From assembly GCA_013288575.1 (NCBI GenBank), contig JABDBO010000003.1:1-33784 (forward strand): a stretch of 33,784 bases of DNA. The letters run 5' to 3'. Below, in pieces: positions 1,319 through 33,784 of the stretch. This DNA is from Alphaproteobacteria bacterium. Lineage in GTDB: Bacteria > Pseudomonadota > Alphaproteobacteria > Rickettsiales > 21-14-0-20-44-7. The notes beneath the pieces were generated by a model. It was not told the DNA's origin and did not search any database. It saw only the letters and a list, made by a program, of their open reading frames with translations. Position 1 is the first letter of the stretch; each line of letters begins with the position of its first letter. The position numbers and the translations under genes were made by a program.

Positions 1319-1759
1319 CGCATACTCAATTCACATTCGATACCGCGATCGATTATTTCATGCTGCTCTGCGTGATAATCATCTTATTTAGAGTTCTGAA
1401 AGAATTAGGCAGAATAAAAAATTTGAAAACTAACGGCTGCATTGTTAAAGGAACTTTCATTGATAAAAAACTTTGCGAAACATTAAGTGGAAACAGCGTT
1501 TTCTGCAAAATTTCGTATTACTTTGTGGATGAAAAAAAATAATCGCTATGAAATGCCAATTTCTATATTCAATTGGAAATATAGAAAAGCCAAAGCTGGA
1601 GATGAAATTATTATAACTTACGATAAGAACAATCCTAATCGGGCTTTTATCAAAGAGGATATTAATCAACATATTAACACATACTATATTTTGGCAGGAC
1701 TATTTGTTATCCTACTTACTCTCAAAATAATTAGACTATCTGGAATAATAGAAACATAA
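1315..1759 (+). pseudogene. DUF3592-like small membrane protein split by a +1 frameshift at an A8 tract
   Basis: ORFs 1315..1542 and 1487..1759 join as ...ISYYFVDEKNNRYEMPISIFNWKYRKAKAGDEIIITYDKNNPNRAF... if one A is removed from 1532-1539; TM segments at both ends; start ATG overlaps the cysC-frame TGA (ATGA). Confidence 0.6.
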
Positions 1760-4700
1760 TGACCAACCTAAACCTCTCTCACAACCTGCAATTCCAAGAT
1801 CTCTACGCCCGCGACGGGCTAGCGAAGGTTGATGCCGCATTCGTAAAATTTTTGGAAGCCGCCAACATCGAACTCCACAATAAATTCGTTGCCGCCCGCA
1901 CCAACCCTGAAAGCTTGGAAAAGAAAGACGAATCCAACCTCCTAATCGCCATCGCGCCAATCCTCGAAGATTTCATCAGTGAGCTTTTCAACATCCGCGA
2001 AGCCGTCACCAAACTCCAATTCGCACACAACGAACTCGGCGATCTCTTCACCGCAAAACGCCTCTTCGTCCAACGCGCCGCGGCTAAGTTTTCTAAACCG
2101 GCCGAGCTGCCGGAATTAAATGGGGAAGAATTACAGCAACAACTCCTCCAGCTTTGTCATTCCCGCGAAGGCGGGAATCCAGGGTCGCAAACTCCACAGC
2201 TGGATCCCAGCCTACGCTGGGATGACTGGGAGCTGGAATTATCACGCCATATTATAAAATGGATGGACGCGGGTGACATCGAAAAACAAACCATCGCCGC
2301 CAAATACGCCAATTGGGCGAGCAATAACGAGCACATCGTAAAACACTCAACCATTTTCAAAAAACCAAAAAAACTAGATTTCACTAATCTCGTGCCGATG
2401 GAAACCATCCAGTTCAACGGCGTCACCATGCAGCGCCTGCCCGAACACGAATGGCGCGCCCGCGATGGCTTTGCACTGACCGACCAAGGCGGCTCACTAA
2501 CCTACGCCCTCGACCAGGCCAATTACTGCATCTACTGCCACAATCAAGGCAAAGACCAATGCTCCAAAGGCATGTGGGAAGCGAAAGAGCCAGTTAAAAT
2601 TGTCAAAAAATCGCCAACCAATGTCAACCTCGCTGGCTGCCCATTAGAAGAAAAAATCTCCGAAATGAACATGGTCAAAGCGCAAGGCTTCACCATCGGC
2701 GCGCTCGGAATTGTCACCGTCGATAACCCAATGTGCGCCGGCACCGGCCACCGGATTTGCAATGATTGCATGAAGAGCTGCATCTACCAAAAACAATCCC
2801 CGGTCGATATCCCGCAAGTCGAAACCCGTTCGCTTAAAGACGTGCTCAACCTCCCATGGGGCTTCGAAATCTATTCGCTATTAACCCGCTGGAACCCATT
2901 AAATCTCGCACGCCCATTACCAAAACCCGACACCGGCTATAAAGTATTGGTCGCCGGCTTAGGCCCCGCCGGATTTACGCTGGCCCATCATTTAATGAAT
3001 GACGGCCACACAGTCGTCGGCATCGACGGCTTAAAAATCGAACCTGTAGCGGAACAATATTCCGGCGTAAAATCCGATGGCTCACGCACACCATTCAAAC
3101 CAATAAAAGACATCAACGAAATAAAAGAAAACCTCTCCGAACGCACACTCGCCGGTTTCGGCGGCGTCGCCGAATATGGCATCACCGTCCGCTGGGATAA
3201 AAACTTCCTAAAAATCATCCGCCTCCTCCTCGAACGCCGCGCCCAATTCACCATGATCGGCGGCGTCAGATTCGGCAGCAACATCACTTACAGCCAAGCC
3301 TTCGACTTAGGATTCGACCACATCGCTCTCGCTATGGGCGCCGGAAAACCAACCGTCGTTGACATGAAAAACGGCCTCGCCCGCGGCGTACGCACCGCCA
3401 GTGATTTCCTCATGGCCCTCCAACTCACAGGTGCCGCCAAAAAAGACAGCATCGCCAACCTCACCGTGCGCCTCCCCGTAGTAGTAATCGGCGGCGGCCT
3501 CACCGCAGTCGACTCAGCGACTGAATCCATGGCCTATTACCCTATCCAAGTAGAAAAATTCCTGACGAGAGTTGAAGCCATCGGCCGCGAAAAATATTTC
3601 GCCAAATTAAACGAAGAAGAAAAACTGGTCGCCGAAGAATTTATTTCTCACGCCAAACAACTCCGAAACTCAAAACACGAAACTCAGAAACTTTTAAACG
3701 AATGGGGCGGCGTAACTTTGGCTTACCGCAAAAATCTCCAAGACGCGCCAAGCTATCGCCTAAACCACGAAGAAGTCGAACTCGCCTTCCAGGAAGGCAT
3801 CAACTTCCTCGGCGATGCAACTCCGGTTGAAGTCATCCTCGACAAATTCGGCCATGCTGAAAAGCTCCGCGTCAAAATCGGCACCGAAGAAAAAATCATC
3901 CCCGCCCGCACCATATTAATGGCCGCCGGCACCAGCCCAAACACCATTGCCGCCCGCGAAGAGCCGGAACATTTCGAACTCGATGGCAAATATTTCCGCA
4001 TGATCGATGAGAATGGCGAAATCAAAAAACCAGAATGGATTTCCAAACCATCCAAGGCCAATGTCCTGATGAATATAGACCAGTCTGGCAAAGCCATCAG
4101 CTTCTTCGGCGATTTACACCCTGATTATGCCGGCAACGTAGTAAAAGCCATGGGCAGCGCCAAACAAGGCTACCCGGTCGTCAGCCGCATCCTCGCCAAA
4201 GCCAAACCGAAAAACATCAACACAAATTTCAACCACCTGCTTCGCGCCAAAGTCCACGATGTCGTGCGCCTAACGCCCACAATCATCGAAGTAATCGTCC
4301 ACGCACCGCTTGCCGCGCAAAACTTCCAACCCGGCCAATTCTACAGATTACAAAATTACGAAGCTTTCGCTCCAAAACTCGAAACCCGAAACTCGGAACT
4401 CGAAACTACCTTAGCAATGGAAGGCCTAGCGCTTACTGGCGCCTGGGTTGATAAAGAAAAAGGCCTCATGTCCACCATCGTCTTAGAAATGGGCGGCAGC
4501 AGCGACCTCTGCGCCCACCTCAAGAAAGGCGAACCAGTAGTGCTCATGGGCCCAACCGGCACACCAACTGAAATCCCGAAAAATGAAACCGTCATGTTGG
4601 TCGGCGGCGGATTAGGCAATGCCGTATTATTCTCCATCGGCAAAGCCATGCGCGAAAACGGTTGCAAAGTTCTCTATTTCGCCGGCTACAAAAAACCAAG

Positions 4701-5262
4701 CGACCGCTACAAAATCGAAGAAATCGAAGCCGCATCAGATGTCGTAATCTGGGCCTGCGACGAAGCCGCTGATTTCCACCCCAACCGCAAGAACGACCGC
4801 TTCTTCACCGGCAACATCGTCCAAGCAATCGAAGCTTACGCCACCGGTAAACTCGGCGACACAATAATCAAAACCCAAGACGTCGAACATGTCGTCGTCA
4901 TCGGCAGTGACCGCATGATGGCCGCCGTCGGCTTTGCGCGCCACAACCAGTTAAAACCATATTTGAAAAACAACCACATCGCCATCGGCTCAATCAACTC
5001 ACCGATGCAATGCATGATGAAAGAAATCTGCGCCCAATGCCTGCAACGCCACGTTGACCCTGAAACCGGCAAAGAATTCTTCGTCTACAGCTGCTTCAAC
5101 CAAGACCAAAAACTGGATTTTGTTGATTTCAATTTCCTCAACGACCGCCTAAAACAAAACGGCGCGCAGGAGAAACTAACCGCCATGTGGATCAACAAAA
5201 CCCTCCACGAATTAGGCCTACGCCAGCAACACGCAGCACCTGCCGCTAAGGCGATGGGCTAA
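1759..5262 (+). CDS. Large FAD/NAD(P)-dependent oxidoreductase: GltD-like N-terminal part fused to a PyrK/ferredoxin-NADP reductase-like C-terminal part
   Basis: Cys clusters (CIYCHNQGKDQC; CAGTGHRICNDCMKSC), dinucleotide motifs YKVLVAGLGPAGF and VVVIGGGLTAVDSA, C-terminal FQPGQFYRLQNYE, VMLVGGGLGNAVLF and SPMQCMMKEICAQC. Confidence 0.8.
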   Translation: MTNLNLSHNLQFQDLYARDGLAKVDAAFVKFLEAANIELHNKFVAARTNPESLEKKDESNLLIAIAPILEDFISELFNIREAVTKLQFAHNELGDLFTAKRLFVQRAAAKFSKPAELPELNGEELQQQLLQLCHSREGGNPGSQTPQLDPSLRWDDWELELSRHIIKWMDAGDIEKQTIAAKYANWASNNEHIVKHSTIFKKPKKLDFTNLVPMETIQFNGVTMQRLPEHEWRARDGFALTDQGGSLTYALDQANYCIYCHNQGKDQCSKGMWEAKEPVKIVKKSPTNVNLAGCPLEEKISEMNMVKAQGFTIGALGIVTVDNPMCAGTGHRICNDCMKSCIYQKQSPVDIPQVETRSLKDVLNLPWGFEIYSLLTRWNPLNLARPLPKPDTGYKVLVAGLGPAGFTLAHHLMNDGHTVVGIDGLKIEPVAEQYSGVKSDGSRTPFKPIKDINEIKENLSERTLAGFGGVAEYGITVRWDKNFLKIIRLLLERRAQFTMIGGVRFGSNITYSQAFDLGFDHIALAMGAGKPTVVDMKNGLARGVRTASDFLMALQLTGAAKKDSIANLTVRLPVVVIGGGLTAVDSATESMAYYPIQVEKFLTRVEAIGREKYFAKLNEEEKLVAEEFISHAKQLRNSKHETQKLLNEWGGVTLAYRKNLQDAPSYRLNHEEVELAFQEGINFLGDATPVEVILDKFGHAEKLRVKIGTEEKIIPARTILMAAGTSPNTIAAREEPEHFELDGKYFRMIDENGEIKKPEWISKPSKANVLMNIDQSGKAISFFGDLHPDYAGNVVKAMGSAKQGYPVVSRILAKAKPKNINTNFNHLLRAKVHDVVRLTPTIIEVIVHAPLAAQNFQPGQFYRLQNYEAFAPKLETRNSELETTLAMEGLALTGAWVDKEKGLMSTIVLEMGGSSDLCAHLKKGEPVVLMGPTGTPTEIPKNETVMLVGGGLGNAVLFSIGKAMRENGCKVLYFAGYKKPSDRYKIEEIEAASDVVIWACDEAADFHPNRKNDRFFTGNIVQAIEAYATGKLGDTIIKTQDVEHVVVIGSDRMMAAVGFARHNQLKPYLKNNHIAIGSINSPMQCMMKEICAQCLQRHVDPETGKEFFVYSCFNQDQKLDFVDFNFLNDRLKQNGAQEKLTAMWINKTLHELGLRQQHAAPAAKAMG
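2156..2226. repeat. Double-hairpin palindromic element (GTCATTCC...GGGATGAC) inserted in frame within the oxidoreductase CDS
   Basis: gtcattcccgcgaaggcgggaatccagggtcgcaaactccacagctggatcccagcctacgctgggatgac; encodes CHSREGGNPGSQTPQLDPSLRWDDW. Confidence 0.85.
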
Positions 5263-5874: not shown

Positions 5875-6056
5875 TTATCCAAAAGTTTCTTAATCTGGCT
5901 TAGACGCAATTTCAAAACCCTCGCCACAACTTCCGGCTCAATTCCCGCCTTCAATGCAATTTTTGCCGAAATTAATCTACTTTTCACAAACCCAGCCGGA
6001 TTCAACCTTTCTTGTCTTTCTGCCTCTTCCAGCAATTCTTCTGCAAACGGTTTCAT
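5871..6056 (-). CDS. Small hypothetical protein (61 aa)
   Basis: ATG overlaps the TGA of the upstream 239-aa gene (ATGA), indicating translational coupling. Confidence 0.5.
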   Translation of the reverse strand: MKPFAEELLEEAERQERLNPAGFVKSRLISAKIALKAGIEPEVVARVLKLRLSQIKKLLDN

Positions 6057-6772
6057 ATTTCTCTCTCTGCCAATTTCCCTTTACAATATGAATGAAACCT
6101 CGCCATCGAATCAGCATCATATCTATCACGACTACCGGTCCAGTTAGTATCTATCATAAGTAACTGACCATATTTTCTGGGTTTTGGTTCATTAGTCATT
6201 CCATCCATATCAGCTATTGCCCAAGCGATTTTTGGATCATCACTACATGATTGCAAAAGTCTTGTTACAAACTCTCTTTCCTCTTTAGGAATAAAATGTT
6301 CATATTGATCAAGATTTTTGATCACACCTGGTCTGAATGACTCAACAGTATCTGGCACAAAGCCATATTTCAGCCAGGCATAACTGCCAATTTCCTCAGA
6401 AGCTACTCTAACTGTAGAGATTTCTTTCATTTCATATATATCTTCCATGTTAACCAACATCTGGGTTGCTGATGCCTTTTGTTGATTTATAAATACATAA
6501 CCTGCAATTAGCTTGGCCTCACCTTCACCAATTTTAAAACAAAAATCAGAATGCTGAATTCTTTGCTGAAATAAATCTATCTGAATTGTTAAAAAACCAG
6601 CTGCATCTACATATAATACAATTTTCTCATACGGCTCCCACGGCGGCATTCCCCTTTTCAATATCTGATATATTTCTTGCGGCGCGCAACCTGGGAAAAA
6701 ACGTTGCCAAAAAATATCTGATTTATGCCCTGTAATGCCTTGCGGGGTTAATAAAATATCATCGTCTCTCAT
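6053..6772 (-). CDS. Hypothetical protein, paralogue of the interrupted gene 6835-7539
   Basis: Shares PQEIYQILKRGMPP, SATQxLxNMxxIYE, GSYAWLKxGFVP and DPKIAWxIAD with the neighbouring copy. Confidence 0.6.
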   Translation of the reverse strand: MRDDDILLTPQGITGHKSDIFWQRFFPGCAPQEIYQILKRGMPPWEPYEKIVLYVDAAGFLTIQIDLFQQRIQHSDFCFKIGEGEAKLIAGYVFINQQKASATQMLVNMEDIYEMKEISTVRVASEEIGSYAWLKYGFVPDTVESFRPGVIKNLDQYEHFIPKEEREFVTRLLQSCSDDPKIAWAIADMDGMTNEPKPRKYGQLLMIDTNWTGSRDRYDADSMARFHSYCKGKLAEREI

Positions 6773-6834
6773 TAAATAATATTGGCCGGATAAAGTTAAT
6801 AATTAGTTACTTTATTAATTAACTATTTAAATGA

Positions 6835-7539
6835 CTAGGCCAACCCTTTCTCCGCTAATTTTTCCTGGCAATATGCATTGAATCTTTCCATACTTTCTGG
6901 GTCTTTCCGATCTAGTTTACCACCCCAATTAGTGCCTATAGTAAGCAATTGCCCAAGTTTTAAAGAGCCCGGTTCAGAGATAAAACTTTCTAAATCTGCA
7001 ATCACCCAGGCAATTTTTGGATCAGAAGATTGCAAAATCCCCAGCACAATTTCCCTATCCCACGGGCTTACTAAATTAGCATCCATATTCACTATTACAC
7101 GTTCTTTGAATGATTCAATATCACCTGGCACAAAACCTAATTTTAGCCACGCATAACTGCCAACTTCACATGCACCTACTGTAACCGTATCAATATCAAG
7201 CGCCTCATAAATTTCATTCATATTAGCCAAAAGTTGCGTGGCCGAGCCTGTGGTCTTCTTAAAATAAACTGCAGTATCAGAAAAATAACTATTACCATTC
7301 GTAAAATTAAATACAAAATATGATTAGTGAGCTCCATTGCAATAAAAATTCATTTTTATTTTGAATGAATCATCAGAAACAGAAAATGTTACTTCTTCTT
7401 TTTTATCATACGGCGGCATTCCCCTTTTCAATATCTGATAAATTTCTTGCGGCTCGTGATTTGGAAAAGTCTTTTGCCAAAACTCCTGAGCTTCTTTCCC
7501 CAGATTACCATTAGGACCAAGATTAAATTCTAATTCCAT
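6835..7539 (-). pseudogene. Second paralogue of the 239-aa family, interrupted by one in-frame TAA (7324-7326)
   Basis: ORFs 7324..7539 and 6835..7230 are in the same frame; intervening codons read SYFVFNFTNGNSYFSDTAVYFKKTTGSATQLLANMNEIYEAL without another stop. Confidence 0.75.
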
Positions 7540-16756: not shown

Positions 16757-17470
16757 CTACTGCAGCGCCATCATATAATAAAATTGCCCATATACCGAGC
16801 GCGAATCAGTGCAAGGGTAAACCGCCAAATCACCATCGCTGCAATAACCAACCTGGCCGGCAGAATTTGCCAAACCTATTGAACTTCCAACAAACGGCAC
16901 AGAACCAAGCTTGGCCTCAAGCGCTAGTTCGGTGATTGGCATTACCTCAACCATCAGCGAAAAATTCCACGTTCCGCCCACATAATAAGAATCTATTCCC
17001 GGTTTAGAGCCCAAAACTGCAGTAGCTGGGCCTTCTATTTCAGTATAAGGTTCAACAACGCCGGGAATATCTGCAATATTATCAGAATGCGGGCCACCGC
17101 AGGCAGTTGCCGGCGAATACGGAACATAATTACCCGTAATCATGCCAGCTTCCACAAGATGCGCAAATACCTGCTGGTTTTCGGAATTGCTAAGTAAGCC
17201 GTTACACTGCGAACTACTTCCTCCCCCGCCAAGATCTAACTGTTCATCATTATTGCCAGGAGGGATGAAGTTGGAACTATCACCGGGATATTTTTTATAA
17301 TTCAGCCTAAAGTTATTTATCGCAACTTCATATTGCTGCAAATTTCTTATTATTTGCTGGGTCTTGGCTGTGCTTATCATACTTTGCGCAACTAATATGC
17401 CGCCGATAAGCAAGCCAATAATAACCAGCACAATAGAAAGTTCCACTAATGTGAAACCTTTACTGCGCAT
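16757..17470 (-). CDS. Type IV prepilin/type II pseudopilin-like protein
   Basis: MRSKGFTLVELSIVLVIIGLLIGG, a class III prepilin signal with Glu+5. Confidence 0.85.
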   Translation of the reverse strand: MRSKGFTLVELSIVLVIIGLLIGGILVAQSMISTAKTQQIIRNLQQYEVAINNFRLNYKKYPGDSSNFIPPGNNDEQLDLGGGGSSSQCNGLLSNSENQQVFAHLVEAGMITGNYVPYSPATACGGPHSDNIADIPGVVEPYTEIEGPATAVLGSKPGIDSYYVGGTWNFSLMVEVMPITELALEAKLGSVPFVGSSIGLANSAGQVGYCSDGDLAVYPCTDSRSVYGQFYYMMALQ

Positions 17471-26464: not shown

Positions 26465-26998
26465 ATGAAAAGACTAAAAAAACTAATTGCCATAATATTT
26501 TTATCCGGTCTGACTGCCTGTGGCACCAGCATGCACGCCTCGCGTGACCCAAACCCAGAAGTTTATACGGATGCGGATGACTTTTATGATAGCGTCATCA
26601 CTGAAATAAATTACACGCCTGATCAGCAAAAGCTCATAAACTATAGCCGCGGCCTGCTTGGCACTGATTATAGCTATGGTAGCGAAAACCCGACTGATGG
26701 GTTTGATTGCAGCGGTTTCACTCAATATGTTTATGCCAAGTCATTGAATTTTAAGCTTCCTCGCACTGCACGTGAGATGGCGCAAACCGGTGAGCCGGTA
26801 AACATAGCTGACCTAAAAGCGGGAGACCTAGTATTTTTTAATTTATTAGGCTTCAAATATTCACATGTTGGTATATATATTGGTAACGGCCGGTTCTTCC
26901 ATGCCAGCACGAATCAGAAAGCAATTGTAATAGGGAATTTGAAAAATGAGTATTTTGCAAAAAGATATAACGGCGCTAGACGAGTCTTATCAAGCTAG
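26465..26998 (+). CDS. NlpC/P60-family lipoprotein endopeptidase
   Basis: Lipobox LTAC; GFDCSGFTQYVYAKS, LKAGDLVFFN, YSHVGIYIGNGRFFHAS. Confidence 0.9.
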   Translation: MKRLKKLIAIIFLSGLTACGTSMHASRDPNPEVYTDADDFYDSVITEINYTPDQQKLINYSRGLLGTDYSYGSENPTDGFDCSGFTQYVYAKSLNFKLPRTAREMAQTGEPVNIADLKAGDLVFFNLLGFKYSHVGIYIGNGRFFHASTNQKAIVIGNLKNEYFAKRYNGARRVLSS

Positions 26999-28139
26999 TG
27001 AGCCAGTTGCCAAAAAGGGCAATATTAAATTTTCAATTGATCGCGCCAATATTTTGCGCGCGCTTTCGCATATTCAATCAGTTGTTGAAAAACGCACAAC
27101 CATTCCTGTGCTGTCAAATGTGAAGCTGGAAATTGAAAGTGATAAGCTGCGCTTAACCGCAACTGATATGGAAATTTCCATCACTGAAACTATTCCGGTT
27201 AAATCATCCGGCAATGGCGCAACAACGCTCTCTGCGCAGATTTTATATGATATCATCCGCAAACTTCCGGAAGGTTCGGAAGTTGAATTCTCAAGCGGCA
27301 AAAATGACCAGGTGGAAGTTAAAGCGGGCCGTTCTAAATTTAAACTTCTTTCACTTCCGGCTGAAACTTTCCCGGCACTAGAGCAAAATGATTTGCCGCA
27401 TAAATTTACATTGCCGGCCAAAGAAATGCGCTCGCTGATTGATAAAGTCCGCTTTGCGATTTCGAATGAGGAAACCCGTTATTATTTGAACGGAATTTAT
27501 TTGCACACCGGCGAAGAAAATGGCTCAGCAGTTTTGCGCACAGCTTCAACTGATGGCCACCGTTTGGCGCGGGTATCAATTAACCAACCAGCGGGCGCGG
27601 CAGAAATTCCGGGTGTTATTATTCCGAAGAAAACGGTTGGCGAATTGCGCAAACTTTTGGCTGAATATCAAAATGAAGTTGAAGTTTCGCTTTCTGAAAC
27701 CAAAATTATTTTCAGCTTCGGCGATGTGATTGTTTCTTCAAAATTGATCGACGGCAAATTCCCTGATTATGACCGCGTTATTCCGAAAGGTAATGACAAA
27801 ATCTTGGAGGTGAATTCAAAAGAATTCGCTGAAGCGGTTGACCGCGTTTCGACAATTTCAATGGAAAAAGCGCGCGCGATTAAACTCTCAATCAAAACTG
27901 GCCTAATCGGCATTTCGACTGATTCACCAGATGGCAGTAATGCCAACGAGGAATTGGAAGCAAGTTACAGCGCCGATGCGATCGAAACTGGTTACAACTT
28001 CCGGTATATACTTGATATGATGGGGCAAATTGAGGGCGAAACGACACAATTCATGCTTGCTGACGCTTCAAGCCCAGCATTAGTGAGAGATCCTAGTGAC
28101 GTTTCAGTACTTTATGTCATTATGCCAATGAGAATCTGA
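26946..28139 (+). CDS. dnaN: DNA polymerase III subunit beta
   Basis: IKFSIDRANILRALSHIQSVVEKRTTIPVLSNVKLE, ATDGHRLARV, C-terminal VLYVIMPMRI. Confidence 0.95.
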   Translation: MSILQKDITALDESYQASEPVAKKGNIKFSIDRANILRALSHIQSVVEKRTTIPVLSNVKLEIESDKLRLTATDMEISITETIPVKSSGNGATTLSAQILYDIIRKLPEGSEVEFSSGKNDQVEVKAGRSKFKLLSLPAETFPALEQNDLPHKFTLPAKEMRSLIDKVRFAISNEETRYYLNGIYLHTGEENGSAVLRTASTDGHRLARVSINQPAGAAEIPGVIIPKKTVGELRKLLAEYQNEVEVSLSETKIIFSFGDVIVSSKLIDGKFPDYDRVIPKGNDKILEVNSKEFAEAVDRVSTISMEKARAIKLSIKTGLIGISTDSPDGSNANEELEASYSADAIETGYNFRYILDMMGQIEGETTQFMLADASSPALVRDPSDVSVLYVIMPMRI

Positions 28140-28216: not shown

Positions 28217-30820
28217 ATGGCTTTACATAAAGATTTAAATAGGGGTTTTGCCCTCATTATTCTAGCCGTATTACTCGCCATTTTAGGCTTGGTTCTGATT
28301 AGCCGCGTCCCGGCTCAGCCCGATAAAGATAAAGTTGTTTTTATTAGAACCCAAACCAAGCTGGATGCTATTCATGCAGCTTTGCTGAATTATTATAATC
28401 TTAATTCTGGAACTTTGCCCTGCCCAGCCAATCCAACATTAAACACAAAAATCGATGCCGCTTTCGGCACTGCAGTTGCAACCGGTGCCGCATGTTCCAC
28501 AACCGCTTCCTGCCCCGCAGGTTTAGTTTGTGCAGCGGCTGACCCTAATGCTGCTGGCAATTCTACAGCTAACCAAATTAAAATTGGCGGCGTACCGACT
28601 AAAACTTTAGGCTTGCCTGATGAATATGCTTTTGACGAATGGGGTAACCGCCTGACTTTTGCGGTTGATCCAACTGCTGCCGAAAATATAGGCGTTTATT
28701 ATATTGATCGAACTGGTGCTAGTCCCGCTACTGTTCAATATAGCAACACAGCTAATCCTTGTTACACTTCCGCTTCGGCCGCTACTCCAAATTCCGCAAT
28801 TGCGCCAAAAAATTCACGCTGCTTAACTGACGATGTCTTAAATCCAATTACTATTCCGGCCGGCCAATTGCTAACTTATGGCACACATAAGGGTGTTGCC
28901 GCTTTCATAGTTGCGCATGGCAAAGATGGCTCTGCCATTTGGAACCGTAACGGCACTTCGGCAGGCACTTGTGCTAATTATAAAAATCCTAGCGGCACTG
29001 CGCTTATAACAACGGCAACCAGTGGCCTGGCAATTCCTTCTGAGGTCGAAAATTGTAACAATGATGCTAGCTTTATTATGGATACGGAAGGCGAAACTAA
29101 AGACAGCGCAAGCGGCAAATCAAGTTATTACGATGATCTCACAACCTATTTCGTGCCTGGCAAAACTTGCAATAATCCAATTTTTGCGATGATGATTTTG
29201 TCGGGCAGCGCAGTCTCAAAAGCTGAAAAAGATTATTCTGTCGGTAAGTTATGCGACGATGGAACCTACATGAGCGCGGAACAATTAGCAGCGAGCGATT
29301 CAGGCAACCTCTGGATTGCTACTAACGGTAGCACCGCTGGCAGTATAATGAATGGTAGTTATTGCTTGGAGTTGGCTAATGGTAATCCTTTATGCGTTGT
29401 TACCGGAGGCATAAATACAGATGATAAGATATCATTCCCTATGTTTTGGGCAATCCTGCCGCCAGATACCAAAACTTTTACCGCATCTGGATCAACCAAT
29501 TACACAGGTGCTAATTGCCTACTCGCACCACAACCAGCCCCTCCCGGCGCGGGTGTGAGTTATATCCGGCGCTACAAATCTACTAAATGCGTTGAACTTA
29601 ATACATTCTCAAATGTTGTGATGTGCGCTCTTGGCTCAAACGGCACTAATTCCGGTTTTGGCCATATATTTGAAGTTGATACCAACAACACAACATGTCC
29701 AATTATCCAGACCCCTTCATATTATATATCGGGATCTATGACGAGCACCTATCCGTCTGTCTATAGCGATATACTTGCCTGTGCTCCATTCGTTTCAACT
29801 TCTGATATGGTATGTATAAGACAATGGGCCGGTGGAAGCAAAATAGCTGCGTATAGATTGCCTTCCGTTTATGACCATGATGCACATGCTGGCGGCGCCC
29901 CTAGCGGCTCAACAACAACTTTAAACCCATATCTGCCAGTCGGTACAAATACAACTGCCTATTATATTGGTAAAAATGAAGATGGTGGGCAGGCCGATTG
30001 CAAAACTTTGAGCACTGATGAAGTGCTCTGCGTTGTTGCTTATGAGGATATGTATTACGCCGGGGCCGGCCCAACATATTATTGGCGACCAAGGCTTGAT
30101 GTACTCGTTTTTGACAAAGATATCACCACTACTTCTTTAGCTGATACAACCACTTTATGTACAACTACTAGCGGATCAAGCTCTTGCACAAGCCCAGTTG
30201 CAACAAACCCTATTCGCACAAGCACTAGCGGTACAGACTTGCCTTCGCCTAATCCTAACAATAACTGGAATAGTTATTCGCCAGTCAGCGGCACATATGT
30301 ACCACCTAATATTGGCGGCATGTATGGTTTAACCTTCCATTCCACTGATAATCCTCAGGAATATGCCACTGGTGTCTTTTGCAACCCTTACACAACTTTA
30401 GTTGGCGGCGTATTAACTCCAACTCCTGGCAAATTTACCTGCGTAGTAACTTTTTATGGAACTACTGGCTCTCCTAATGATGGGGTTGATGCGGGAGTAT
30501 TTATTGTCACCGCGGGTAGTAGAAGCTTAAATGTTGCACCAACCATAACTGCAGCGCCCGCCCCTACTTGCTCGAGTGCTGGCGGTTATTATGGCGATTA
30601 TCAAACCTGCTCAAAAACATTCTCAAATAACAATAAATTCTTTTGTTTGCAGCAAAATGGCGGCACCACTTGGTTAACTGGTCACCAATACAGAACTATT
30701 TCTTTCCCTGCTGATGGCAACGGATCATGCTCAATTGGTAAATGGAATGATATCCCATTTTATAATTCTATAACTAATCCGAGTGAAGTTTTGACGCAGA
30801 CTACATTCATTCGTAAATAA
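28217..30820 (+). CDS. Giant prepilin-like protein 1 (867 aa), Cys-rich C-terminal region
   Basis: MALHKDLNRGFALIILAVLLAILGLVLISRVPAQPDKDKVVFIRTQTKLDAIHAALLNYYNLNSGTLPCPANP: short basic leader, G/F junction, hydrophobic helix, pilin-like start; long Cys-rich tail. Confidence 0.7.
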   Translation: MALHKDLNRGFALIILAVLLAILGLVLISRVPAQPDKDKVVFIRTQTKLDAIHAALLNYYNLNSGTLPCPANPTLNTKIDAAFGTAVATGAACSTTASCPAGLVCAAADPNAAGNSTANQIKIGGVPTKTLGLPDEYAFDEWGNRLTFAVDPTAAENIGVYYIDRTGASPATVQYSNTANPCYTSASAATPNSAIAPKNSRCLTDDVLNPITIPAGQLLTYGTHKGVAAFIVAHGKDGSAIWNRNGTSAGTCANYKNPSGTALITTATSGLAIPSEVENCNNDASFIMDTEGETKDSASGKSSYYDDLTTYFVPGKTCNNPIFAMMILSGSAVSKAEKDYSVGKLCDDGTYMSAEQLAASDSGNLWIATNGSTAGSIMNGSYCLELANGNPLCVVTGGINTDDKISFPMFWAILPPDTKTFTASGSTNYTGANCLLAPQPAPPGAGVSYIRRYKSTKCVELNTFSNVVMCALGSNGTNSGFGHIFEVDTNNTTCPIIQTPSYYISGSMTSTYPSVYSDILACAPFVSTSDMVCIRQWAGGSKIAAYRLPSVYDHDAHAGGAPSGSTTTLNPYLPVGTNTTAYYIGKNEDGGQADCKTLSTDEVLCVVAYEDMYYAGAGPTYYWRPRLDVLVFDKDITTTSLADTTTLCTTTSGSSSCTSPVATNPIRTSTSGTDLPSPNPNNNWNSYSPVSGTYVPPNIGGMYGLTFHSTDNPQEYATGVFCNPYTTLVGGVLTPTPGKFTCVVTFYGTTGSPNDGVDAGVFIVTAGSRSLNVAPTITAAPAPTCSSAGGYYGDYQTCSKTFSNNNKFFCLQQNGGTTWLTGHQYRTISFPADGNGSCSIGKWNDIPFYNSITNPSEVLTQTTFIRK

Positions 30821-30887
30821 CTATAACTTCAATAAAACTTTACATGGGTTCAAGAGTTGATAAAATATTTGAAATAGGGTTTAGATT

Positions 30888-33602
30888 ATGATTACGAACA
30901 AAGCTTTAGATAAAGGTTTTGCGCTTATAATTCTGGCAGTCTTGATTGCCATTTTAGGCTTGGTCTTAATTGGCCGCGTGCCAGCTCAACCGGAAAAAGA
31001 TAAAGTCGTTTTCGTTAGAACCCAAGCTAAACTAGATGCTATTCACGCGTCTTTGCTGAATTATTATAATCTTAATTCTTCAACTCTGCCCTGCCCGGCC
31101 AACCCAACTTATGCCACTAGTAACGCTAGTTTCGGTTTAGCTGCCGCTACTGGTTCCACTTGTTCAGGCACAGGATCTTGCCCTGCAGGTTTAGTTTGCG
31201 CGGCGGCCGATCCTAATGGTGCTGGCAATTCCACAGCTAACCAAATTAAAATTGGCGGCGTACCGACTAAAACTTTAGGTTTGCCGGATGATTACGCTTT
31301 TGATGAATGGGGCAATCGTATTACTTTCGCGGTTGATCCAACTGCTTCTGAAAATATTGGTGTTTATTGGATTAATCGCACTGGTACTTCAGCGCTTGTT
31401 CAATATAGTAACACTGTCAATCCTTGTTACACTTCTGCCTCGGCCTATACGCCAAGCACCGCAATTGCGACTAAAAATTCTCACTGTTTAACTGATGATA
31501 CATTAAACCCAACTTCTACCCCAATCGGACAGTTGCCAACTTATGGCACACATAAAGGGGTAGCCGCTTTCGTCGTTGCACATGGTAAAGATGGCTCTGC
31601 TATCTGGAACCGCAATGGCTCTAACATTTCTGCCAATTGTGTTGCCGGAACTTTAAAAAATCCTAGTAGCACCACAATGGATAGTTCGGTCTCGGAGCAA
31701 CAGAATTGCAATAAAACAGCTGTAGGAAGCGTCGCAAGTTTTGTTATGGATACTTTGGGTGATAAACTCTTAAACAGTAAATCTACCTATTATGATGATC
31801 TTACCACTTACTTCGTAGCAAATAACTCTTGCCCGGTTAATACCTCAACTTTCGGTATGATGATTGGCACTGAAGTCACTTCCGGTGCAACTTACGGGAA
31901 AGGCTACCAAGTATTCAAATTGTGCCAGGATGGAAGCATCTCAACAGTTGAAAATTATAATGACAGCACAAATGCAGCAGGAAACTTGTGGCTGACCAAT
32001 GGGACAGGATCTACCACATATATGCAAAGAGCATCTTGTCTGGAACTCAGTAATGGCAACCCATTTTGCGTAGTATATGGATGGTCAGTCAACGTAGGTA
32101 CATATTGGGTTATAAGCCCGGTTACTGGGGCAAAATTAGCATCCGCCGGAACTAATTACACAGGCTCTTCCTGCCAATTCACTCCAATCAATTCAACTGT
32201 AGATCCTGCAGTTGCAGGTTATACAGCTTATACCAGTGGCATTTCAGGTAATAATTCAACTAACCAATTAAATTGTTCAGAATCAGTTGCTGTTCCAGGC
32301 AAGATAGGGTGCAATTTGCAGTTCGGCGGTACTAGCAGTGGTTATGTTGGCGATTTTGAAATAGATGCCAATAACTTGCCTGTTGCCTGCCCTCTAACTT
32401 ACGATTATAACACTATAAGTAAGGGTCTTGCCAGCGGCGATGGCAATAGACCTATTTCTTGCGCGTTTTTCCCCGGTTCAGCCGATAAAGCATGTTTTAG
32501 AACCTATAGCGCTTCAGAAGTTTATCTTATGGAGCGTCACCATACAGTGTATAATGATATGAATGAAACTGGCACTGGTACGGGTGCATTTAATCCATAT
32601 CTTCCTAATCCTGCTTCCAATAATACTGAGAAATTAGATGCTAATCACGGCATGTACGGCGGCGCCAACAATGATCTGCCTCACCATACCGTTGCAGCAG
32701 ATTGTCATTCGTTAAATAGCGTTGCCTATCCTGATGATGTATTATGCATGGTAACTTATGAGGAACAATATATTGCTGGTACAGGTGGCGGATATCATCC
32801 GGCTGGTAACCAATACCGAGCAACTTTGAATGCTATCGTAGTAGCAAAAGATAATTATCCTGCCGAGCAAAATGGCTGCTCAGCAACACAAATATCGTCT
32901 CACCATAACTCTTTATGCTCTGTACCAACCACCGTATCTAATTGTGCGGGTTCAACTGGCTGTACTGCTCCGGTAAGTTCAAATCCTGCTCCAAATGATC
33001 TTACTACTACACCTAGTCCTAATGTAAATTGGACGACTTATTTTAACTCGTCAGCAGCAGGCACTAGAGATGCCTATTTACCATATACTATAACTGGGAT
33101 TGACCCTACCGTGGCGCAACCAGCCGGATCAAGCGCAACTTATATTCCTACCTATAACAATATTTTTTGCCGGCCTTATACGTCAAATGGCATAACTTCT
33201 AAAAACAAATATGTTTGCATAGTTTTATATTCGACAGGCGCTAATCCTGGGCTTTTCATAGTAGATGCGACACTAGCACCGGTTAAAATTACGGCTGGCC
33301 CTATCTGCTCAGGAATTTCAAGCACAAATAATCTTATTTGGGATTGTTCAAAAGTTTATACAAAAAACACGCCGAATAATTTTTATTGTTATATGTCGCT
33401 TACTACGCAACCAATAGGTATTACCACTCCTGAGGTCATTTCACATAGCTATCAGATGTTAAATATTGCCGCTGATGGCTCGTCGTGTGCTGTAACCAGT
33501 AGGGGGACGCAAACTGCGCCGCTCAGCCTTTATGTCAGAGGTGTTTCCTTCCAGAAAAATGACCATTGTGTTTTCAGTCCCTTAGATTCTATTTGCCAAT
33601 AA
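30888..33602 (+). CDS. Giant prepilin-like protein 2 (904 aa), tandem paralogue of the preceding gene
   Basis: First 73 aa align without gaps to the previous protein at 60 of 73 identical positions; similar architecture with divergent C-terminal region. Confidence 0.7.
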   Translation: MITNKALDKGFALIILAVLIAILGLVLIGRVPAQPEKDKVVFVRTQAKLDAIHASLLNYYNLNSSTLPCPANPTYATSNASFGLAAATGSTCSGTGSCPAGLVCAAADPNGAGNSTANQIKIGGVPTKTLGLPDDYAFDEWGNRITFAVDPTASENIGVYWINRTGTSALVQYSNTVNPCYTSASAYTPSTAIATKNSHCLTDDTLNPTSTPIGQLPTYGTHKGVAAFVVAHGKDGSAIWNRNGSNISANCVAGTLKNPSSTTMDSSVSEQQNCNKTAVGSVASFVMDTLGDKLLNSKSTYYDDLTTYFVANNSCPVNTSTFGMMIGTEVTSGATYGKGYQVFKLCQDGSISTVENYNDSTNAAGNLWLTNGTGSTTYMQRASCLELSNGNPFCVVYGWSVNVGTYWVISPVTGAKLASAGTNYTGSSCQFTPINSTVDPAVAGYTAYTSGISGNNSTNQLNCSESVAVPGKIGCNLQFGGTSSGYVGDFEIDANNLPVACPLTYDYNTISKGLASGDGNRPISCAFFPGSADKACFRTYSASEVYLMERHHTVYNDMNETGTGTGAFNPYLPNPASNNTEKLDANHGMYGGANNDLPHHTVAADCHSLNSVAYPDDVLCMVTYEEQYIAGTGGGYHPAGNQYRATLNAIVVAKDNYPAEQNGCSATQISSHHNSLCSVPTTVSNCAGSTGCTAPVSSNPAPNDLTTTPSPNVNWTTYFNSSAAGTRDAYLPYTITGIDPTVAQPAGSSATYIPTYNNIFCRPYTSNGITSKNKYVCIVLYSTGANPGLFIVDATLAPVKITAGPICSGISSTNNLIWDCSKVYTKNTPNNFYCYMSLTTQPIGITTPEVISHSYQMLNIAADGSSCAVTSRGTQTAPLSLYVRGVSFQKNDHCVFSPLDSICQ

Positions 33603-33650: not shown

Positions 33651-33784
33651 GTGCTTACCCAATTACTGCTCAACAATTTCCGCAATTACCATTCGCTACA
33701 ATTAAATTTTGCGGCGCAGGTAACGGTGATTTACGGCCATAATGGCGCCGGCAAAACCAATCTGCTGGAAGCAATTTCGCTATT
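33651..33784 (+). CDS. recF: DNA replication/repair protein RecF, 3' partial
   Basis: From GTG 33651: (V)LTQLLLNNFRNYHSLQLNFAAQVTVIYGHNGAGKTNLLEAISL. Confidence 0.85.
   Translation, partial: MLTQLLLNNFRNYHSLQLNFAAQVTVIYGHNGAGKTNLLEAISL

Follow-up and report, generated by a model that had tools for sequence, protein, structure and literature searches.

What are two large proteins that begin like prepilins doing between dnaN and recF? The window analysed here, 33,784 nt of a 1.05 Mb draft Rickettsiales genome that is 58% complete and comes from an uncultured bacterium, contains two intact open reading frames on the same strand with a spacing of 67 nt (Table 1). As the initial annotation had described, they encode tandem proteins of 867 and 904 aa; the two are 52% identical. 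In both, a basic leader of ten residues with a final Gly (MALHKDLNRG in gene 1, MITNKALDKG in gene 2) is followed by FALIILAV(L/I)LAILGLVLI, which places Ile at +5 and agrees with the earlier reading of a prepilin start without Glu5. In other words, the class III signal, i.e. a short hydrophilic leader up to Gly followed by ~20 hydrophobic residues from Phe, is present. Cys makes up 3.2-3.5% of both proteins, Ser plus Thr ~21% and Asn 7-9%; the stretch rich in these residues had also been recognized, and the present analysis adds that it comes after a defined pilin module of ~320 aa. On the sequence, each protein thus consists of a class III leader, a family pilin module and a large extra module.

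Table 1. Coordinates of the tandem genes and their modules, the flanking genes and the canonical prepilin in the window.
Feature	Position	Strand	Basis
Canonical Glu5 prepilin, 237 aa, candidate co-assembling subunit	16757..17470	-	Pfam N_methyl 1.6e-6
dnaN, upstream flank of insertion	26946..28139	+	
Gene 1, Glu5-less modular pilin, 867 aa	28217..30820	+	Sequence, family homology
Gene 1 basic leader, ends at Gly10, predicted prepilin-peptidase site between Gly and Phe	28217..28246	+	Gly-Phe conserved in family
Gene 1 mature pilin module, aa 11-320	28247..29176	+	Alpha-1 helix, LPCPA, GGVPTKTLGLPDEYAFDEWGNR, HGKDG, YYDDL
Gene 1 C-terminal Cys-rich module, orphan	29177..30817	+	Homologue searches, AF2
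Gene 2, paralogue of gene 1, 904 aa	30888..33602	+	Sequence, identity to gene 1
Gene 2 mature pilin module	30918..31838	+	Family alignment
Gene 2 C-terminal Cys-rich module, 37% identity to that of gene 1	31839..33599	+	Comparison with gene 1
recF start, cut by contig end, downstream flank of insertion	33651..33784	+	

Downstream of the pair, the recF open frame begins at ~33651 (GTG; ...LLLNNFRNYHSLQLNF...YGHNGAGKTNLLEAIS) and leaves the contig at 33784. The dnaN locus was read in 29 relatives; in at least 20 of them an open recF frame starts within ~150 nt of the dnaN stop, and in the only genome of the same family this frame lies ~16 nt after the stop. Two of the 29 have a shorter insert between the two genes, and the remainder were unjudgeable or without the motif; no pilin was seen at these loci. 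Because recF directly follows dnaN in most relatives, including the same-family genome, gene order identifies the pair as a lineage-specific insertion, in line with the initial annotation. Its GC content (0.43-0.44) matches that of dnaN (0.43) and the neighbourhood.

The pilin module spans residues 1 to ~320 and is homologous to an order-wide family. The first ~160 residues match members of this family in 39 of 57 Rickettsiales genomes, the source genome included (best match outside it, E 3e-21), and on this basis we regard the N-terminal signal as not due to chance. Family members number up to seven per genome, are often in tandem, and have open frames of roughly 230-2445 aa; their alignment shares the Gly-Phe site, LPCPA, GGVPxxTLGLPDxYAFDxWGNRxTY, and then HGxxGxGA and FDD. 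In some alpha- and betaproteobacteria, tblastn carries the match as far as residue 330. Pfam N_methyl has no match on either window protein; a profile of 60 module sequences matches solved type IV pilins, including a geopilin domain (5.5e-12), as well as PilA, PilE, MshA and GspG. An AF2 model of aa 1-320 contains helices at 6-29 and 37-62, i.e. a broken alpha-1, with pLDDT ~90, followed by a sheet (pTM 0.70). Thus, the profile matches and the long alpha-1 helix support a genuine pilin module, in line with the earlier view. The structural comparison added less: Foldseek of the module against the PDB gave four weak matches, three of them to ETEC type IVb pilin structures, and none was significant. 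Prepilin peptidase (PilD) would be expected to cleave both proteins at the predicted site after Gly10. No paper on this Rickettsiales pilin family was found in the literature searched, the coverage of which is incomplete.

Does the family belong to a type IV-like filament, as had been proposed? Across the 57 genomes, which are not independent, its presence tracks that of PilC (38 of 39 family genomes, p=6e-10), PilD (37/39, p=4e-9) and the secretin (37/39, p=4e-8). Family genes adjoin PilD and secretin genes in many genomes; in G018, for instance, PilD (A24_N_bact 8e-27) and the secretin (3e-30) are divergent from two family genes. These associations uphold the proposed link. In the source genome itself, pilC is complete, and the genes after it encode products that are PilM/N- and PilO-like by position and length and have no Pfam support. 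PilD, a PilB-type ATPase and the secretin were not found in this 58% complete genome, while the same-family genome has all three. A neighbour of the pilC cluster encodes a protein of 518 aa in which Pfam recognizes a retropepsin-like aspartyl protease domain (L111:11056-12612; 4e-21).

A possible partner of the pair is encoded in the window itself. A homologue of the canonical prepilin at 16757-17470 adjoins a Glu5-less, propeller-bearing relative of the pair in genome G017, and this arrangement makes a partnership between the pair and the canonical prepilin plausible. On the minus strand, this prepilin gene comes immediately after fliI-fliJ, and it overlaps the end of fliJ.

The window has further features of its own. 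The ORF at 1759-5262 (1167 aa) contains, in frame, a palindromic REP/RPE-like element at 2155-2230 (TCATTCCCGCGAAGGCGGGAATCC ... GGATCCCAGCCTACGCTGGGATGA), which adds CHSREGGNP...LDPSLRWDD to the encoded protein. In the CysN/CysC-like ORF at 3-1315, the APS-kinase part ends at 986 after DGDNVRQGL, and a continuation is readable in another frame to ~1315, pointing to a deletion, a frameshift or an assembly error. Two adjacent related ORFs of 239 and 131 aa at 6053-7230 on the minus strand share the motifs KIAWVIADLES/KIAWAIADMDG and LGQLLTIGTNW/YGQLLMIDTNW and look like a duplicated gene.

Glu at +5 is almost invariant in bacterial pilins, and capping subunits lack it. Within the family, Glu occupies this position in 102 of 119 distinct N-termini that have a residue there (~86%). 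The median length is 551 aa in members without Glu5 and 313 aa in those with it (p=0.005, uncorrected for kinship); on a tree built from 136 modules, seven changes are required to account for the absence of Glu5. In this tree, the window pair groups, with a support of only 65, with six further proteins that also lack Glu5; the eight members of this clade are 646-904 aa long. Each of the six has a Pfam propeller, either NHL (L026 twice, L126) or FG-GAP (L045, L121, L129), and their genes are mostly orphans among housekeeping genes. According to the review literature, Glu5 mutants of type IV pilins are processed and join compound filaments with wild-type subunits, while they form no homopolymers (PMC4471445), and tip complexes are reviewed as being capped by a subunit without Glu5 (PMC10191384). 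Because Glu5 seems to have an important part in type IV pilus methylation (PMC4471445), the N-methylated Phe assumed in the initial annotation is doubtful for the pair.

The family-wide module carries very different heads. Propeller repeats are present in 21 of 48 large members scanned (FG-GAP 5, NHL 6, RCC1 6 and, with weaker scores, WD40-type 4), LamG is present in 5, and L-type lectin (weak), PA14, vWA (weak) and C1q with an S74 chaperone occur once each. With so many different head domains on the same base, the domain matches indicate that one carrier family took up many unrelated binding-type modules. Two Glu5 pilins stand out: a protein of 2444 aa with 17 FG-GAP stretches (L035:7960-15291), by far the largest of the family, and one of 1661 aa that has C1q domains and ends in an S74 endosialidase chaperone (L057:1949-6931).

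The head of the window pair is of a kind of its own. The Cys-rich C-terminal module extends ~540 aa beyond the family-wide pilin module, and 18 of its cysteines are conserved between genes 1 and 2. It had no homologue in 739 genomes (352 from the order, 387 from the class) and no significant match in Pfam, NCBIfam or PHROG. A head match in G637 (E 0.008 over 48 positions) was taken as chance, and phmmer matches to immunoglobulin light chains in the PDB (E ~0.003-0.09) were rejected as compositional noise. In the full-length AF2 model, the module has low confidence (pLDDT mostly <50) and its strands recur in groups of three; Foldseek on this model returned nothing usable for the head. Six or seven C...C...C units picked by eye gave an alignment score of 524 vs 530 +/- 22 for shuffles, and an hhalign profile comparison of the head with NHL and FG-GAP modules was negative; we therefore rejected the units as a demonstration of a propeller. 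Since the units score like shuffles and hhalign fails, that the window head is a beta-propeller is likely only by the company it keeps.

The two copies have not diverged evenly. The proportion of synonymous differences (pS) between genes 1 and 2 is 0.50 in codons 1-250 and 0.73 in the head, where it is near saturation. The lower synonymous divergence in the base than in the head suggests that, in the window pair, the base underwent gene conversion or heads were exchanged; in four other tandem pairs this contrast was not clearly seen. For aa 1-250, a dN of 0.14 vs a dS of 0.84 indicates that the base is under constraint at the protein level.

Based on these data, we read the pair as probable modular type IV pilins without Glu5 that would be co-assembled with Glu5-bearing pilins, likely at the tip, and bear a putative ligand-binding head. 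In this model, the two proteins would form no filament alone and would enter a filament of Glu5-bearing pilins, most likely as capping subunits. On the cell exterior, the 540-aa Cys-rich module would then serve as an adhesin or as a head that binds a ligand, and it may be a beta-propeller; a conserved base with differing heads in the two copies could provide two binding specificities. Because heads of many binding types, often beta-propellers, sit on the same base elsewhere in the family, the pair are probably sticky tips of type IV pili.

The overall principle has precedents. Modular pilins are a widespread grafting strategy in which the extra module is thought to be exposed at the tip (PMC8179133), and PilB (vWA) and PilC (lectin) of Streptococcus sanguinis, like the pair, combine a small pilin base with a large C-terminal module (PMC8179133). 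Unlike in these proteins, the module of the pair is an unrecognised Cys-rich stretch of 540 aa and Glu5 is absent; moreover, in Rickettsiales, a single carrier family has many heads. The large minor pilin CofB of the ETEC type IVb pilus also has C-terminal extra domains and a predicted tip position (PMC8179133); however, its heads are a beta-repeat and a beta-sandwich, and no sequence similarity to the pair was found. In Saccharibacteria, PilX2 is a minor pilin with an RCC1 beta-propeller and a proposed host-binding adhesin (PMC12206443), and heads of the RCC1 type are found in the Rickettsiales family as well. PilX2 is from another phylum and was reported without a predicted PilD signal, whereas the window pair has a clear Gly-Phe site and its propeller is only a candidate. 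Thus, the modular pilin principle and the RCC1-propeller minor pilin are already known (PMC8179133, PMC12206443), and the pair represents a modular pilin with an unrecognised head.

Other readings of the pair differ in where the proteins would act. They could be dispersed along the pilus body at low stoichiometry, since Glu5 mutants do incorporate with wild-type subunits (PMC4471445) and a flexible linker could permit such a position (PMC8179133); we consider this unlikely, as the heads are very bulky and the arrangement described is a cap without Glu5 (PMC10191384). The initial annotation had compared the missing Glu5 with tip pseudopilins of the GspK type; as pseudopilins of this kind, the pair would cap a short periplasmic pseudopilus of type II secretion and serve secretion rather than adhesion. 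Subunits of the GspK type also lack Glu5, are large and sit at the tip, as we propose for the pair; in addition, the N-terminus has a weak NCBIfam likeness to GspG (E 0.012), and the family adjoins a secretin, which type II secretion also uses. Against this, neither Pfam nor NCBIfam gave a GspK match even at a cutoff of E=1, and the 540-aa module is appended, unlike the alpha domain inserted inside the pilin fold of GspK (PMC8179133). Moreover, relatives bear the adhesin-type heads LamG, FG-GAP, vWA and PA14, and the literature assigns type IV pili to basal Rickettsiales (PMC9352585, PMC10847448). We therefore reject a GspK identity, the pair belonging to a separate order-wide family, and regard a secretion pseudopilus of this kind as decidedly unlikely; what endures of the earlier reading is large Glu5-less pilins that are probable tip adhesins in kind. 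It is very unlikely that the pair are envelope proteins held in the membrane by a pilin-derived signal anchor and no longer part of any filament: the orphan site within a replication operon and remote from pilus genes, the loss of Glu5 and the strongly hydrophobic segment would fit, but the Gly-Phe site and the globular motifs have been kept under constraint, as the dN and dS values above indicate. Finally, a binning or assembly artefact that joined the pair to dnaN and recF from elsewhere is hardly credible, given a continuous contig with intact ORFs, matching GC and recF in frame at the far end, and given that clade relatives are likewise mostly orphans, even if the insertion is known from a single incomplete draft and from no second genome.

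How, then, would the proposed tip pilins relate to PilY1? PilY1 is the protein that usually sits at the tip of diderm T4aP, and it is not itself a pilin. Like the pair as we read it, the PilC/PilY1 tip adhesin (PF05567) presents a large variable head at the pilus tip. PF05567, which may under-detect PilY1 in this order, matched in just 4 of the 57 Rickettsiales genomes (G024, G032, G043 and G049), and neither in the source genome nor on the window proteins. Three of these four genomes have LamG-headed pilins. None is among the eight with propeller pilins, an exclusion that is not significant (p=0.56). We offer only tentatively the idea that, in Rickettsiales without PilY1, Glu5-less propeller-headed pilins are one-piece caps that do the tip adhesion of PilY1, probably to eukaryotic or bacterial partners, with the window pair as a new Cys-rich propeller type and head swapping having diversified attachment.

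Type IV pili have been proposed as an ancestral host-attachment organ of Rickettsiales (PMC9352585, PMC10847448), and no paper naming a Rickettsiales type IV pilus adhesin was found in the literature searched. The order-wide context is in this respect of more interest than the window pair alone. A pilin family with exchangeable heads, in an order in which PilY1 is absent from most genomes, is a concrete candidate for the Rickettsiales pilus adhesin and offers natural cases for how a tip adhesin may be built without PilY1.
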